A stretch of DNA of 64,000 nt from Natronogracilivirga saccharolytica. Its GTDB lineage: Bacteria > Bacteroidota > Rhodothermia > Balneolales > Natronogracilivirgulaceae. The notes below the pieces were generated by a model, which worked only from the letters and a program-made list of their open reading frames with translations, made no database searches and was not told the DNA's origin. Position numbers and translations under genes: made by a program. Each line of letters begins with the position of its first letter. Positions within the stretch are counted from its first letter, which is position 1. The stretch lies in NCBI RefSeq assembly GCF_017921895.1, contig NZ_JAFIDN010000009.1, positions 1-64,000 on the forward strand, read 5' to 3'. Shown here piece after piece: positions 10,407-18,735 of the stretch.

Positions 10407-11702
10407 CTACCTTATCAGAGTAAATTTTTTGGATTCCACATATCCACCTGCTTGCAGCCGGTATATATAAACTCCACTTGACAATCCGGCAGCCTCAAAT
10501 ATCACCTCATGCCATCCAGCAGACCTTTTCCCCGCATCAAGGAAAGCCACCTGTTGGCCGGAAAGTGTATAAATGCAGAGATGAACTTCGGATGGTACCG
10601 GTAATTGAAACCGGATTATGGTAACAGGATTGAACGGATTGGGAAAGTTCTGGTTCATAATGAAACTCGTGACATTGCCATGCAGCTGTTCGGTGGCTGT
10701 ACCTGATGGACAACTACCCCATACGGGTTTGTTTTCTTCACTTAAGGGACAGCTAAAGGAAAAGTTTGCAGGTTCGGCAGTGATCTTTTCAACGCACCAG
10801 CTGCTCAGGTCCTGATTGAAAGAAGCGGCACCAGCAAACATGGTTTCCATATCGGTCACGTTACGCACATCCCAACCGCCAATATCTTGATTAAAGGCAC
10901 GTGCATCGGCAAACATGGCATTCATGTGCATGACGTTACTTACATCCCATCGGCCAATATCCTGATTGAAAGAATGGGCAGCATAGAACATCAGCCCCAT
11001 GTGGGTTACATTACCGGTATCCCAATTACCGAGATCCTGATTAAAAGAAACGGCACCACTGAACATGGAAAACATGTTGATCACACCGGCAACATCCCAG
11101 TTACCGATATCACGGTTAAATGAGATGGTACCTGAGAACATCATCACCATGTGGATGACATTGCCTACATTCCATTCACTGATATCCTGGTTAAATGACA
11201 CTGCTCTACCGAACATTTCATTCATATCATTAACCTGGCTTACATTCCATTCACCGATATCCTGGTTAAAAGCTGCGGCATCAGAGAACATCCAGCCCAT
11301 GGTGATCACATTACCGGTATCCCATTTGCTTATGTCCCTGTTGAAAGAAGCGGCACCACTGAACATGTATCTCATGTTTGTGACGTTGCTGACATCCCAG
11401 GAGCCGATATCCTCATTGAAGAAAAATTTTTCTTCAAATAATGCTTCCATGCTGGTAACCGGTGAGGTGCAAAGACGAGACAGGTCTGATTCATTCCGGA
11501 TATGTAGTCTCAGTAAATCATTATCTGCAGCTTCATATTCGATGCCCTGAACAGTTCCCTTACTGCCCGAAGCAACTCCCGGACATTTTACTGTAATACC
11601 GTTATCATCGAGGAAAAAGGTACCTTGACTGACCGAACGTCCGGGGATAATCAGAAGGCAAAGCAGCACAACTATTCCGGGGAAAAATAGTGTTGTTTTC
11701 AT
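10407..11702 (-). CDS. BspA/DUF285 repeat surface protein with T9SS tail
   Basis: A protein of about 431 residues. After a signal peptide (LFFPGIVVLLCLLIIPG) come eight complete 25-residue repeats and a partial ninth of the DUF285 'FNQDIGxWDVSNVTxMxxMF' type, known from BspA-like and Mycoplasma surface lipoproteins, where they make a right-handed solenoid used in adhesion. The C-terminal 75 residues are a complete T9SS type A sorting domain (NFPNPFNPVT ... SSGVYIYRLQAGG ... FTLIR). The ATG at 11702 is preferred to one at 11759 because it starts the signal peptide. The protein is therefore probably carried across the outer membrane by T9SS and displayed or released. Two inverted repeats lie about 200-255 bp upstream. 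Confidence 0.88.
   Translation of the reverse strand: MKTTLFFPGIVVLLCLLIIPGRSVSQGTFFLDDNGITVKCPGVASGSKGTVQGIEYEAADNDLLRLHIRNESDLSRLCTSPVTSMEALFEEKFFFNEDIGSWDVSNVTNMRYMFSGAASFNRDISKWDTGNVITMGWMFSDAAAFNQDIGEWNVSQVNDMNEMFGRAVSFNQDISEWNVGNVIHMVMMFSGTISFNRDIGNWDVAGVINMFSMFSGAVSFNQDLGNWDTGNVTHMGLMFYAAHSFNQDIGRWDVSNVMHMNAMFADARAFNQDIGGWDVRNVTDMETMFAGAASFNQDLSSWCVEKITAEPANFSFSCPLSEENKPVWGSCPSGTATEQLHGNVTSFIMNQNFPNPFNPVTIIRFQLPVPSEVHLCIYTLSGQQVAFLDAGKRSAGWHEVIFEAAGLSSGVYIYRLQAGGYVESKKFTLIR
10788..11420 (-). repeat. 75-bp tandem coding repeats (DUF285 units)
   Basis: Eight full units and a partial ninth, each 75 bp (25 residues), have strongly conserved blocks encoding FNQDIG.W and MF.GA.SF. The variation is mostly in the middle of each unit. 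The regular spacing might suggest a CRISPR, but the repeat stays in frame and is entirely coding. Confidence 0.85.
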
Positions 11703-11900
11703 GTGTTTATAATTTATGATTCTGACGTCACATGTAGTACCCATGTTGGCTATAATCATGCTTCTGTGTGGCGATAAGCCGCCATGGGTATTTCATTGAA
11801 ACTCCCCGTGCTTTTATAGAGGTTTATAGACGTACTTATGCAAGAGTCCCGGTAAACAGCCGGTAAAGAGATGCCTGCCGCTCAGCAATGTGCGGCCAAT

Positions 11901-12382: not shown

Positions 12383-13108
12383 TTATTTGACCAGCGTCAT
12401 TGTCCGGGTCAGTTCCATTCCGGCGGCATTAAGCCGGTAGATATATGTACCGCTGGTGAGTCCTGCGGCATCAAAGTCTACCGTATGTGTGCCTGCTCCA
12501 AGCTGTTCATTTACCAATTCAGCTACTTCCTGTCCGAGTGTGTTGTATACCGTCAGGGTAACCTGACCGGCATTTTCCGGTACCCGGAAGGAAATCTGGG
12601 TGGTTGGGTTGAACGGATTGGGATAGTTCTGATTCAAAGTGACATCTTCCGGGCGATCAGCCAGAATCTCATCAGCAGATGTTTCTCCGGGCTGTACCCC
12701 GAATATATCTTCAACTACTTTGTCATCTGTTACGGAAATTGACCTGTCCGGATCTCCGGGCCACTCATCATTATCCCAGGTGGGTTCGTCTTCTACAAGA
12801 AAATACTTGTATTCGTAGTCGTCCGCCTCCAGTTCCAGCGTGATGGTATAGATGTCAGAATCATCGGCATGCGGCTCCATTGCAAAATCCGGATTTTCTC
12901 CGGGTTCGGTCCAGTCAACCATGGATCCGGTGATGAAAACATCGTAGACATCCGGATCAAAATCAGCATCGGACATGTCGACATTGAATGTGACATCAAA
13001 GACTTCTTCTTCCTGCACGGTTCCTTCTGCTGCAGCCCGGGCTGCAGAAAATGTGAGGCCCGCAGCAAGAAAGAGAACAATTGTATTTCGTATCATTTTA
13101 GTAATCAT
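12383..13108 (-). CDS. Secreted starch-binding-like protein with T9SS tail
   Basis: A protein of about 241 residues: signal peptide (IRNTIVLFLAAGLTFSAARAAA), then a beta-sandwich segment (FDVTFNVDMSDADFD ... VFITGSMVDWTEPG ... DYEYKYFLVED) that resembles the CBM20/CBM48 or 'starch-binding outer membrane' modules often found in Bacteroidota exported proteins, then a complete T9SS sorting domain ([10 protein letters not shown] ... SGTYIYRLNAAG ... MTLVK). The protein is strongly acidic. The ATG at 13108 is chosen because GGAA lies just upstream; an in-frame ATG at 13096 is the alternative. A perfect LacI-type palindrome 112-125 bp upstream suggests carbohydrate control. The binding partner is inference. 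Confidence 0.82.
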   Translation of the reverse strand: MITKMIRNTIVLFLAAGLTFSAARAAAEGTVQEEEVFDVTFNVDMSDADFDPDVYDVFITGSMVDWTEPGENPDFAMEPHADDSDIYTITLELEADDYEYKYFLVEDEPTWDNDEWPGDPDRSISVTDDKVVEDIFGVQPGETSADEILADRPEDVTLNQNYPNPFNPTTQISFRVPENAGQVTLTVYNTLGQEVAELVNEQLGAGTHTVDFDAAGLTSGTYIYRLNAAGMELTRTMTLVK

Positions 13109-13219
13109 AGTTCCATTGTGTTGGTTTAAAATTAACCGGCCGGACAAAGAACATTGCCGACAGTTGCCGGATAACCTTGTATTGGCAATGTTTTGCTAAT
13201 GAATACAGCCGGCACGATT

Positions 13220-13233
13220 TGTAAGCGCTTACA
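13220..13233. promoter_or_regulatory. Perfect LacI-family operator palindrome
   Basis: TGTAAGCGCTTACA is a 14-bp perfect palindrome with the central CG and flanking TGTAA/TTACA typical of LacI/GalR/CcpA-type operators. It lies between the divergent starch-binding-like gene (-) and the transporter gene (+), so it could control either or both. No LacI-type regulator gene is in the window. Confidence 0.7.
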
Positions 13234-13463: not shown

Positions 13464-15002
13464 ATGGAATTTGCAAGCGATCATTTTGCCATAGTCCACA
13501 TCCTCAACCAGTACTGGCTCACCCTTCTTCTGGTGATTTCCATGGTACTGATATCCCGCACGTTTGTCGCCGGGACCCGCTACTCACCGATTCTGATTAT
13601 CGTCGTTTTTGGTCTGATTATGGGATACATCATGGTCGGAACAGGACTTGCCACTCCCGGGCTGCCCGAATTTCCCATAGTAGAACTTACCAGCAGGGTG
13701 ACCATAACAGCGCTGATGGCTTCTTTTTTTGTAGGCGGGCAGGAGATCAGAAAGCTCTTTGCCAATCAGAAAATCGATCCGGAGGACATGGTCGTACCTT
13801 CTTCCCAGGAGCTGTTTCTGGGTACTAAAGCCACCCAGTTCATGTTTCTGATCCGCGGTTTTTTTATTCTGACCGGCATCGAGGCTCTGCGACGGATGGT
13901 TACCGGTTACACCACAGGGGAGCCGCTCGACCAATTTTATCCGCTTTTGGGTTACATCGGCCTGGTTGCTTCCATCATTCTCATTGATCATCGCGCAAAG
14001 ATCACCAACAAGGCCGTCTATATCCGCAAGGGAATTTACGAAACAGCTGTAATCATACTGGTCCTTACAGCTGCATTTCATATAGCCTCCTGGATTCGTC
14101 CGTTCATTGCCCTTCCCGAGATCTTCTTTGCGATGATAATTTCGGTGGGACTGGGTATGTTCATGGTGCGATGGCAGTTTGGTCCGACTATCAAGTCACT
14201 GTTGTTTGCAGGTATTCCTATAGTGCTTGCGGCCAACTTCATGGTAGGCGGATCGCGTATTGCCGAGGCGTTCGCGCTGACGGGCATGACGTCGGTGCTC
14301 TCATTCGGGTTTTTCGGGCAACTATTGTGGATGTTCGGCGGACTGGCAATCCTTATTCTGCTTGGTAACGCCAATCACATCCGCAACCTCGCTCCCGGTA
14401 TGGCCGGTTCCTTGTCCCATTCGGGACTGACGGGCGCCTGTACTGCCGGTGATTTGGGGCCGCAGGCCGCCATCCGGGCCCCGATTATGATCAATATTCC
14501 GTTTATTGGGCACATTTTTGTGTTTTCCATACTTGCAGCAAGCGCTACCGCAGGAAAACTGCTGATCCCGTACACTCTGGCGGTGGTGATGGCCGGGTTG
14601 GTCCTTACCTTTTTTGCCCTTAAAATACTGCGCGGGGGAGTCGGTGAAGAACAATCCGAAATTCGCGGACTGATGATTTTCTCACTCGGATGGCAGCTGG
14701 TGGCCGTATTCGGCGGGTTGTTTCTTCTGGATATATCAGGCATGCCGCTGGCGGATGCTGTAATGGCCAATGCCTCGGCGATATCACACTTCGGTCTCTT
14801 TGCCGCCATTCAGGAGGGCATGTTCGGGGCTGAAGCAGCGGGAATGATCGCTTTCGTATTTGCCATGCCGTTTCTGGTCCATCCGCTGGTCTTCGGAATA
14901 TTCGGAAAGGCAGCGGAAAATGACGGGATCATGCCGGCAAAAACGGTCTACTTTCTGGCGCTCCTTGGTGTAGTTGGCGTACTTTATTCGATGTTCTTCT
15001 AA
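13464..15002 (+). CDS. Multi-pass membrane protein, probable transporter of unknown substrate
   Basis: A 512-residue integral membrane protein with roughly 12-13 hydrophobic segments and no signal peptide. The first half has ILIIVVFGLIMGYIMVG and ITALMASFFVGGQEIRKLF; the second half has a polar stretch SLSHSGLTGACTAGDLGPQ between two hydrophobic spans, of the kind seen in re-entrant loops of secondary carriers. The layout recalls anion:Na+ or glutamate:Na+ symporters and cation:proton antiporters, but I do not recognise a specific family. The convergent neighbour 118 bp downstream is a PII-like protein, a common partner of transporters (as SbtB is of SbtA). The start ATG at 13464 is the first in frame. 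A LacI-type operator lies upstream. Confidence 0.7.
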   Translation: MEFASDHFAIVHILNQYWLTLLLVISMVLISRTFVAGTRYSPILIIVVFGLIMGYIMVGTGLATPGLPEFPIVELTSRVTITALMASFFVGGQEIRKLFANQKIDPEDMVVPSSQELFLGTKATQFMFLIRGFFILTGIEALRRMVTGYTTGEPLDQFYPLLGYIGLVASIILIDHRAKITNKAVYIRKGIYETAVIILVLTAAFHIASWIRPFIALPEIFFAMIISVGLGMFMVRWQFGPTIKSLLFAGIPIVLAANFMVGGSRIAEAFALTGMTSVLSFGFFGQLLWMFGGLAILILLGNANHIRNLAPGMAGSLSHSGLTGACTAGDLGPQAAIRAPIMINIPFIGHIFVFSILAASATAGKLLIPYTLAVVMAGLVLTFFALKILRGGVGEEQSEIRGLMIFSLGWQLVAVFGGLFLLDISGMPLADAVMANASAISHFGLFAAIQEGMFGAEAAGMIAFVFAMPFLVHPLVFGIFGKAAENDGIMPAKTVYFLALLGVVGVLYSMFF

Positions 15003-15023
15003 TCGGACGAAATCTGCAGCTTA

Positions 15024-15114
15024 AGCGCTTGCCGCATTAGTAAGAGTTTGTCGGAACCTTGAGCGGTTCCCGCGTTCTTAAGCGCATGCAAAATTTTTTA
15101 GCGCTTGCCACATT
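15024..15114. repeat. Repeated AGCGCTTGCC motif between convergent genes
   Basis: AGCGCTTGCC(G/A)CATT occurs at 15024-15038 and 15100-15114 (14 of 15 bases identical), with a related CTTAAGCGCATGCA at 15077-15090 between them. The core AGCGCT is also the core of the LacI-type palindrome at 13220. Confidence 0.55.
15053..15070. terminator. Small hairpin between convergent transporter and PII-like genes
   Basis: GGAACC (15053-15058) pairs with GGTTCC (15065-15070) around a 6-nt loop. It has no T tract; it may be a transcript-end structure for the convergent pair. Confidence 0.3.
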
Positions 15115-15119
15115 GCGGG

Positions 15120-15455
15120 TTACTTTGTTTTGATTTGATCCAATAATGATGAAAAGCCGCCCAGCTCCTTTACATCAAGGACAAGCAGTATGCCGTTTTC
15201 GGGATCATCAAGGTTGGCGTCCGAAATGATCTGATCCTTCACTTTTTTGGTTTTTGACTCGGGTGTCAATATAAAGATGATCTCTTTGGGTGGTTCAACT
15301 TGAACAGAAAGCAGTTTAAAACTTTTCTTTCCAACGCTTCCCTTTGTATTGAAAGCAGTGTAAACAGGAGCTTTCGATTTTTCACATGATTCGATAACGA
15401 TGTCGTGCTGATCGGTATCAATGATTACCATTATGAGGTCGTATTTTTCTTCCAT
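15120..15455 (-). CDS. PII-like signalling protein
   Basis: A 111-residue protein with the size and beta-alpha-beta order of the PII (GlnB) superfamily: a first strand KYDLIMVIID, a helix with two Cys-flanked positions (VIESCEKSK), a short T-loop-like region (FNTKGSVGKKSF), a strand KEIIFILT, a helix KVKDQIISDANL, and the ending DPENGILLVLDVKELGG, which is where PII proteins have GDGKIFVFDV. PII-like proteins form trimers that sense nucleotides and bind transporters or enzymes. The uridylylated Tyr of classical GlnB is absent from the shortened T-loop. Its only close partner is the convergent transporter at 13464-15002, so control of that transporter is the best guess. The family call rests on pattern, not on a search. 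Confidence 0.68.
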   Translation of the reverse strand: MEEKYDLIMVIIDTDQHDIVIESCEKSKAPVYTAFNTKGSVGKKSFKLLSVQVEPPKEIIFILTPESKTKKVKDQIISDANLDDPENGILLVLDVKELGGFSSLLDQIKTK

Positions 15456-15788: not shown

Positions 15789-16679
15789 ATGTCCGGCAAC
15801 ACTCATATATCCCGACTGATGCGGTTTTGGTTACCCGGTTCCCGCAAAGGATCTGCAGCCATACCGGTCATGCTGATAACAACAGCATTGATCTTTTCCG
15901 CCTGCAATCCTTTTTCAGCCTCTGAAAAGTCCGGTTCCGGAATTGCAGAAGACGGGCTGGAAATATTTTTTTCCGAGCATGTCGAAAGAGAGCGAAGCGA
16001 AACAACTCCTGCTGAACTGAAGCTCCTCATGAGAATGAGCACAAAAAAGATCATGCCCTGCATGAATTACCAGATTTCTTTCCGCCTTTCGGATTATGGC
16101 AGGAAACCGAGAGTAAGAGATATCCGGCTGCTGAGCTATGGATTGCCGGGTCAGATGTGTCTCACTGCTCTTGGGCCCGCCATCGGGAAGGTGGATTTTG
16201 ACCGGCATAAGGGGTCGTACCGCCTGCTGATCAGAGACGGCGACCTGAAAGACAGTTTCGACCTTGAAATAACAGATGAATATGTCCGGGTTGTACCCGA
16301 TGCAGCCACATTCACCAGGGCAACGCACGATGTTTATTATCGAAGGCCGGAGAATTCGTTTTACTTCGTCTGTGGTACTACAAACGACATGGGCCATCTG
16401 TGCGATGATTTTCATCACAAAATGAAGGGCGAACTCACCGTTTCGGAGTTTACTTTCCCTGATGACGGCTGGATACCATATCCTGAAAAATCAAGTGGCA
16501 ATCATTACAATCATCCCACGAGGTATTACACGTATGACAACGTGGAGCAGTTTCATCGTGCCGGAGAGCTTCTGGAGCAATTTACACATGATGAGATAGG
16601 CGACAAACAGGGAATATCACTGTCTATTATGAACTGGATAGATGAGGGATACCGGTCATGGCAAATGCAAAGCCGGTGA
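15789..16679 (+). CDS. Orphan lipoprotein of unknown function
   Basis: A 296-residue protein with a long basic n-region and the lipobox LIFSAC (Cys39). The mature part has four Cys (in MPCMNYQIS, GQMCLTAL, YFVCGTTND and GHLCDD), which could form two disulfides, and an His/Asp-rich stretch (HLCDDFHHKM) that could bind metal. No family is recognised. An in-frame ATG at 15819 (MRFWLPG) would shorten the n-region; the start is not certain. It sits alone between the PII-like gene and typA, with its own 330-bp upstream region. Confidence 0.65.
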   Translation: MSGNTHISRLMRFWLPGSRKGSAAIPVMLITTALIFSACNPFSASEKSGSGIAEDGLEIFFSEHVERERSETTPAELKLLMRMSTKKIMPCMNYQISFRLSDYGRKPRVRDIRLLSYGLPGQMCLTALGPAIGKVDFDRHKGSYRLLIRDGDLKDSFDLEITDEYVRVVPDAATFTRATHDVYYRRPENSFYFVCGTTNDMGHLCDDFHHKMKGELTVSEFTFPDDGWIPYPEKSSGNHYNHPTRYYTYDNVEQFHRAGELLEQFTHDEIGDKQGISLSIMNWIDEGYRSWQMQSR

Positions 16680-16932
16680 TATTTTCGTTGCGCAGAGAGA
16701 CGGATTAAAACAAGTGGTGAATTTGGAGGTTGCTCGATTTTTAAAAGTAAAATCCGTAAATTACGAAACTGTGGCAAAAACGCTGTTTTTGCTGATTGCC
16801 TGTAGCTGTGTCGGATAATTGTCCGACATGCACTACCTCAAAATATACTCCAATCATGGGACTGAATGACCGGTACGAAGTACCCGTGTTATGATCCGCC
16901 CGACCCCATTTTCCCAGCTTATCTCACATCAG

Positions 16933-18735
16933 ATGCAACAACCCATTCGCAATATTGCCATCATCGCACACGTCGACCACGGGAAAACCACTCTGGTTGA
17001 CCATATGCTCCGTCAAAGCGGTACTTTCCGCGAAAACCAGGAGGTCGCCGAACGCGTCATGGATTCCAATGCCCTGGAGCGGGAACGCGGAATTACGATC
17101 ATGGCCAAAAATACCGCCGTGAAATGGCACGGTACAAAAATCAACATCGTTGATACCCCGGGTCACGCCGATTTCGGCGGTGAGGTAGAGCGTATTCTGA
17201 AAATGGTCAACGGTGTCATATTGCTGGTGGATGCCGCCGAAGGCCCGCTGCCCCAAACCCGGTTTGTGCTGCGTAAGTCATTGGCCCTGGGATACCGGCC
17301 CATTGTGGTCATCAACAAAATCGATCGCCATGATGCCCGCCCGGACGAGGTGGTCAACGAGGTGTTCGACCTGTTTGTCAGTCTGGAAGCCACTGATGAG
17401 CAGCTCGATTTCCCCGTATTATATGCCGTTGGCCTGCAGGGCTTTGCCAGGGAGGAACTTTCGGATGCCAACGAAGATCTGTCCCCGCTTTTTGACGTGA
17501 TTATCCGTCATGTGCCGGAACCGGAGCGTCCGGTTGAAAAACCGTTCAAAATGCTGGTTTCCAACATCGAGTGGAACGACTATGTGGGCCGGATTGCCAT
17601 CGGACGGGTAGAACAGGGAACCATCGAAAAGAATCAGCCGATCATCCTGCTGGACCGGAACGGTCAGGTCAAGGAGAAGTCCCGCATCACGAAACTGTAT
17701 ACCTATGCCGGACTCGAGAAAGTACCTGTGGACAAGGGCGAAGCCGGGGATGTTATCGCTCTGGCTGGCTATGAAAACACCAACATCGGCGATTCACTGA
17801 CATCCGAAGAAGATCCGACTCCGGTCGCCTATTATGACATCGACAAGCCGACCATTGCGATGTATTTCCGGGTAAATGACTCGCCGTTTGCGGGACGCGA
17901 GGGCAAATATGTGACATCCAACATGCTCAAAGACCGCCTGATGCGGGAAATCCGGACGAATGTGTCCCTGAAGGTCGAGCCGACCGAAAATCCCGACATA
18001 TTCAAGGTGTCGGGGCGCGGAGAGCTGCAGCTCTCCATTCTCATCGAAACCATGCGCCGCGAGGGGTATGAATTTGCCGTTTCTCGTCCGGAAGTACTCA
18101 TGCAGGAGATCGACGGGGTGCTTCAGGAACCGGTGGAAGAGGTGATCATTACCGTAGAAGAAGAGTACAGCAGCCGGGTCATCGAGATATTGATGAACCG
18201 TAAAGGCACCATGACCAGCATGTCGGGAGAGCTTGACATGACGCGTCTGGAGTTTCGTGTGCCGTCACGCGGACTGATCGGATTCCGGAGCGATGTTATG
18301 ACCGAGACCCGCGGGACGGCCATGATCCATCAGCAGTTTGACGGATACGAACCATTCAAGGGGGATATCACCGGCCGGAACAACGGAGTGCTTATTGCAC
18401 TTGAACACGGCAGTGTCACCCATTATGCACTCGAAGGGCTGCAGGACCGCGGGCAGTTCATCATCGAACCCGGAGATTCCGTTTACATGGGACAGGTGGT
18501 CGGTTTGAACAACCGCTCGGATGACATGATCGTCAACGTGGTCAAAAAGAAAAACCTGACCAATCACCGGGCCTCGCAAAGTTCGGATGCGGTTAAATTG
18601 TCAACGGCAAAAAAACTGAGCCTCGAACAGTTCATCGAGACCATTGAAGATGACGAGCTCATCGAAGTCACACCTCACAGTCTCCGGATCCGGAAAAAAT
18701 ATCTTGACCCGCACGAGCGTAAAAGAAATAGTTAG
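16933..18735 (+). CDS. typA: Ribosome-associated GTPase TypA/BipA
   Basis: A 600-residue translational GTPase of the EF-G class that binds the 70S ribosome and helps assembly and growth under stress. The GTPase motifs are clear: G1 [10 protein letters not shown] (residues 12-21), G2 RGITI, G3 DTPGH, G4 NKID. EF-G-like domains III and V follow ([40 protein letters not shown]) and the BipA-specific C-terminal domain ([27 protein letters not shown]). The ATG at 16933 is chosen over 16891 because family members begin only about ten residues before G1. It stands alone, as is usual. Length matches the family. Confidence 0.96.

Follow-up and report, generated by a model that had tools for sequence, protein, structure and literature searches.

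The carrier gene and the PII-like gene that adjoin each other in Natronogracilivirga saccharolytica appear to be neighbours without a dedicated partnership. On the reading that we prefer, with a probability of about two in three, a solo carrier enriched in haloalkaliphiles happens to lie next to a PII-like gene of the class found with antiporters, while the LacI-type operator in front of the carrier serves a starch gene. The analysis covered a stretch of 64,000 nucleotides, referred to here as the window, in which the following features are of concern:

12383-13147, minus strand: secreted protein with a T9SS tail and a starch/glycogen-binding-like domain, likely start near 13108 (domain and tail matches)
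13220-13233, no strand: predicted LacI-type operator TGTAAGCGCTTACA of the divergent starch-binding gene (exact match, genomic copies and conservation in genome G199)
13464-15002, plus strand: carrier, a 512-residue polytopic membrane protein of unassigned family (ORF; 80 relatives)
15020-15114, plus strand: intergenic direct repeats containing AGCGCT, not LacI-type, no role found (sequence)
15120-15455, minus strand: PII-like protein of 111 residues (P-II profile E 6.9e-5; orthologue above the cut-off; clade profile finds PII structures)
15789-16679, plus strand: 296-residue protein, third gene of an extra block (no family found in Pfam and NCBIfam searches)
16891-18735, plus strand: typA/bipA, the syntenic anchor (BipA_C domain; 84% identity to the G199 typA)

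The carrier and PII-like ORFs were located where the sequence-only reading had placed them, in the convergent order that it described, and their ends are 117 bp apart. The typA gene of G199 directly adjoins, divergently, an orthologue of the starch-binding gene. As typA starts only at 16891 in the window, the carrier, the PII-like gene and the gene for the 296-residue protein occupy the gap, and these three genes are an extra block relative to G199, through gain here or loss there. Elsewhere in the window (10407-11759, minus strand) lies a gene for a 450-residue protein with stretches of DUF285 repeats (E 4e-95) and a weak type IX secretion tail; the DUF285 family was first described in mycoplasmas.

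The two genes had been proposed to form a new transport pair under PII control, a proposal that the distribution of their relatives does not bear out. Carrier relatives occur in at least 116 places in a species-level genome collection, of which 80 loci were kept for analysis (57-88% identity, near-constant length). In none of the 80 was a PII gene adjacent to the carrier, with ~870 kb of flanking sequence searched, and none was found in further loci checked beyond the 80; the one nearby case among the 80 is L016, where a DUF1538/PII cluster lies 6.2 kb from the carrier. PII-like genes of the window type (at least 70% identity) are rare, with three in the 245 genomes of the class including that of N. 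saccharolytica, so that their neighbour habits are poorly sampled. The carrier is present in two of these three genomes. The third, G207 (90% complete), has the PII orthologue and no carrier, and in G211 the carrier and the PII orthologue are on different contigs, the latter at a CPA1 gene. In carrier-bearing Bacteroidales no such PII was found. Co-occurrence of the two genes as neighbours elsewhere, the lack of which the sequence-only reading had itself named as evidence against the pair, was looked for and not found, and a dedicated PII-controlled pair is therefore not supported.

The 111-residue protein is, on its profile matches, PII-like and a predicted member of the PII superfamily (PF00543). 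It scored 23.6 bits against the Pfam P-II profile (E 6.9e-5) and so narrowly missed the cut-off of 25, which its G207 orthologue (77% identity) exceeds with 28.7 bits, and a profile of the clade retrieved PII structures from the PDB (best E 2e-6). The earlier description of a PII-like protein with a short T-loop was thus confirmed, as was the profile match of 15120-15455 to PII by which it was to be checked. Two motifs retained in its relatives, GGT and GRG, are absent from the protein, and so is their NEPGxGIAF loop: the window-type trio has PVYTAFNTKG and DDPENGILL at the places where the relatives have GGTIIxGRG and NEPGxGIAF. With these nucleotide-site motifs lost, the ligand of the window protein may differ. 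Its C-terminus is GGFSSLLDQIKTK and its sole cysteine is at position 24.

The genes that adjoin the clade are informative as to its usual partners. The next-nearest PII relatives have ~30-36% identity to the window protein, and in each of the 28 distinct loci tested (L094-L120 and L123; further hits from the same genomes were set aside) their immediate neighbours are DUF1538 genes. One DUF1538 pair, UmpAB, has been shown to work as an antiporter of Na+(Li+,K+)/H+ (PMC5484666). The PII paralogue of N. saccharolytica itself is fused in tandem and adjoins a DUF1538 pair on a contig other than that of the window (L133:4521-6673). Within the literature collection searched, no paper joined DUF1538 with PII-like proteins, an absence which is not proof. 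Solo genes of the clade are found with a second class of antiporter. The G211 orthologue (70% identity) comes after a co-directional CPA1 (Na_H_Exchanger/TrkA_C) gene (L130:3791-5698), and genes for PEP carboxylase and carbonic anhydrase (L130:2-3427) lie next to this CPA1/PII-like pair, which may hint at a link to bicarbonate. The G207 orthologue is located instead behind a gene for a WYL regulator. Of six solo PII-like genes from one family of Bacilli, five immediately precede a CPA1 gene of the same orientation, and one of these CPA1 genes is truncated. Besides L130, the loci recorded with a solo PII-like gene and a co-directional CPA1/TrkA_C gene are L181:2208-4215, L184, L185, L187, L188 and L189. 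Solo genes with such a CPA1 link occur in both Bacteroidota and Bacillota. In Salipaludibacillus aurantiacus (L180:4022-4945) the CPA1 gene by the PII-like gene is cut to a C-terminal part of 158 amino acids; the gene is whole in the related locus L181. The neighbours of the PII-like clade thus come from two Na+/H+ antiporter families that are unrelated to each other, and the association spans two phyla. The notion that PII-like proteins are tied to neighbouring carriers holds for the clade, the carriers being known Na+/H+ antiporters of the DUF1538 and CPA1 families.

No CPA1 partner for the window PII was found in the N. saccharolytica genome, so that the adjacent carrier may stand in for one, and it could be argued that the two are a true pair after all, the PII-like trimer binding and gating the carrier in place of a CPA1 antiporter. 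The antiporter linkage of the clade would agree with this, as would the weak likeness of the carrier to CPA antiporters and CitS described below. Carrier and antiporter-linked PII also co-occur in the genomes of the order, where all 15 carrier genomes have such a PII against 36 of 98 overall (p 3e-8, or 1.3e-4 by genus, in a statistic that ignores kinship); shared saline-alkaline habitat readily explains this co-occurrence. We consider a true pair unlikely, as the adjacency is confined to one genome and the two genes are convergent and form no operon, whereas a PII gene linked to an antiporter runs in the same direction as its partner. Moreover, G211 has both genes and keeps its PII with CPA1 and its carrier elsewhere, and no such PII was found in the carrier-bearing Bacteroidales.

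The membrane protein had been described as belonging to no recognised family, and sequence searches of Pfam, NCBIfam and the PDB were indeed empty. The carrier sequence reached no Pfam or NCBIfam family up to E 1, and the carrier together with its 43-member alignment gave no credible match in Pfam, NCBIfam or the PDB. Among the families considered as relatives there was no sequence match to SbtA (Pfam, NCBIfam), to the CPA cation/proton antiporters (PF00999) or to DUF1538 (UmpAB). The carrier is nevertheless widely distributed in saline and alkaline settings. By sample code, 46 of the 80 carrier loci come from soda-lake metagenome series, and a further 10 belong to named haloalkaliphilic genera. 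We take the GEM and DLM sample codes to be of soda-lake origin and the listed genera to be haloalkaliphilic. The CSSed and B1Sed codes were traced to a soda-lake series (PMC6146748). Plasmid and phage records held the carrier in one Photobacterium replicon (56% identity, unannotated there) and in no phage; the link to haloalkaline habitats is strong, and the Photobacterium copy indicates that it is not strict. One copy (L088) is in the Coriobacteriia bin Lab288P1bin96, a code that presumably denotes a strongly alkaline termite gut compartment (Labiotermes P1) and would fit the habitat pattern. The gene order around the carrier in L073, a contig labelled Desulfobacterales, is the same as in the Bacteroidales contigs L019, L021, L025 and L071, and L073 is thus probably misbinned. 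No recurrent neighbours hinting at a substrate were found around the carrier, where synteny is lineage-local and sugar genes do not recur. The family is without a Pfam or NCBIfam model and is strongly conserved in soda-lake bacteria of several phyla.

An AlphaFold2 model of the carrier was confident (pLDDT 87.6). Foldseek searches with the full model and with its C half gave no hit with E < 0.001; SbtA structures were absent from the Foldseek matches listed, an absence that excludes nothing. In VIA-align the upper matches of the carrier model were all CPA antiporters or CitS. The best was SOS1 (Z 9.5, 4.5 A over 262 residues), which is below the level of trust for helical models. For the C half on its own, CitS was the nearest structure (Z 8.0, 5.0 A over 187 residues), with a score that chance can give in such models. 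Z values at this level in helical models may merely reflect a common arrangement. The model resembles elevator carriers such as NhaP/SOS1 and CitS only weakly. Most of the C half is covered by an internal direct repeat, of which the two copies are:

14292-14564, plus strand: internal direct repeat, copy 1 (residues ~277-367, SHSGLTGACTAGD region)
14667-14933, plus strand: internal direct repeat, copy 2 (residues ~402-490, SHFGLFAAIQEGM region)

The copies were aligned by hhalign of two parts of alignment A1 (E 2.2e-8, 29% identity). When the profiles of the two carrier halves were compared, no similarity was found between N half and C half, and the repeat is confined to the C half. From habitat together with the weak resemblance in fold we infer an ion-coupled carrier of the elevator type, and an elevator-type, Na+-linked carrier is favoured but unproven.

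The likeness of the C half to the Na+/citrate symporter CitS raises the possibility that the carrier is a Na+-coupled symporter of bicarbonate, a carboxylate or another anion in the manner of SbtA, on which the PII-like protein would report carbon state as SbtB does. The PEP carboxylase and carbonic anhydrase genes near the G211 orthologue point the same way. This is quite unlikely, however, given that the carrier has no sequence match to any carrier family and that the PII-like protein is without the C-terminal cysteine loop of SbtB; high-affinity uptake would also be less needed in carbonate-rich soda lakes.

The palindrome TGTAAGCGCTTACA, reported as a perfect LacI-type site upstream of the carrier, is present as an exact and single copy in the window at 13220-13233, although it is nearer to the divergent gene and is conserved with that gene. 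The site is upstream of both genes, 111 bp from the probable start of the starch-binding gene on one side and 230 bp from the carrier on the other. G199 has AGTAAGCGCTTACA 112 bp upstream of its starch-gene orthologue and no carrier near. The protein encoded at 12383-13147 matches AMPK1_CBM/X25 weakly and a T9SS tail strongly, and its G199 orthologue has AMPK1_CBM and CBM_20 above cut-off. The 3.75-Mb genome contains three exact copies of TGTAAGCGCTTACA, and as expected of a LacI-family starch operator they accompany alpha-glucan genes, and one of the loci also has a LacI regulator: the second copy is located between a SusC gene and the gene for a secreted GH13 alpha-amylase, beside which is a LacI-family regulator gene, and the third before a secreted GH57 gene. 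The loci of this starch regulon (L166:3686-11352 and L168:2023-4767) comprise SusC, GH13 with CBM48, the LacI regulator (L166:10318-11352) and GH57. Upstream of other carriers the palindrome was found at background level only. Conservation in G199, the copies at starch genes and the missing site at other carriers identify TGTAAGCGCTTACA as the predicted operator of the divergent starch-binding gene and not of the carrier. With the operator placed in the starch regulon, there is no support for LacI control of the carrier. An import of starch products by a LacI-regulated carrier, in one regulon with the divergent gene, would draw on the position of the operator in the shared intergenic region; it is very improbable, since in G199 the site accompanies the starch gene with no carrier in the vicinity, other carriers lack the site, and sugar genes do not recur as neighbours of carriers elsewhere.

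The AGCGCT-containing repeats between the carrier and PII-like genes are likewise present, at 15020-15114, as three partial direct repeats, two of which are the 15-mer AGCGCTTGCC(G/A)CATT. Their LacI-type character did not hold up. As candidate LacI operators they were rejected, with no match to the palindrome within 3 mismatches, and LacI-type sites at both ends of the locus can no longer be claimed. A structured RNA or terminator was also rejected, as folding was no better than that of shuffles on both strands (z -0.74 and -0.22).

On the preferred reading the carrier and the PII-like gene would be neighbours in the N. saccharolytica lineage and no dedicated pair. The carrier would probably be an elevator-type secondary carrier that either exchanges Na+ or K+ for H+ or cotransports Na+ and an anion. 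Genes of the PII-like clade normally sit with UmpAB/DUF1538 or with CPA1 with TrkA_C, and the PII-like trimer would most likely dock on a membrane protein of the Na+/H+ antiporter type, gating it in response to a small ligand. The LacI-type operator would serve the divergent gene for the secreted starch-binding protein. If PII-like proteins do gate antiporters, sodium and pH homeostasis would be tied to an intracellular signal. It is a more speculative and improbable suggestion that the carrier family is a further, so far unrecognised Na+(K+)/H+ antiporter type of haloalkaliphiles, controlled in this genome by a PII-like regulator of the antiporter class whose ligand site has changed. In that case PII-like proteins would as a general class regulate sodium and pH homeostasis, acting on three unrelated antiporter families.

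Several known systems can be compared with the locus. The PII-like proteins beside UmpAB/DUF1538 are homologous to the window protein (~25-36% identity) and share its short T-loop, whereas the window protein is solo, has another membrane protein adjacent and has lost GGT and GRG. The cyanobacterial bicarbonate carrier SbtA and its PII-like regulator SbtB likewise place a PII-like gene next to a carrier gene, but the window genes are convergent, their linkage is not conserved and the carrier is without a sequence match. At its C-terminus SbtB has a redox loop that contains two paired cysteines (PMC10991534), and the window PII-like protein does not have this loop. The CPA1/CPA2 antiporters (NhaP, SOS1, NHA2) are weakly similar in arrangement to the predicted carrier model (Z up to 9.5) and share the saline-alkaline habitat; the carrier differs in its lack of sequence match and in the direct repeat across most of its C half. 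CitS and the other 2-hydroxycarboxylate Na+ symporters are nearest to the C half of the carrier, with a score in the range of chance (Z 8.0), and again have no sequence match to it. To the LacI-family operators of starch-utilisation genes the site in the window conforms without notable difference, as a perfect palindrome with copies at SusC/GH13/LacI and at GH57.
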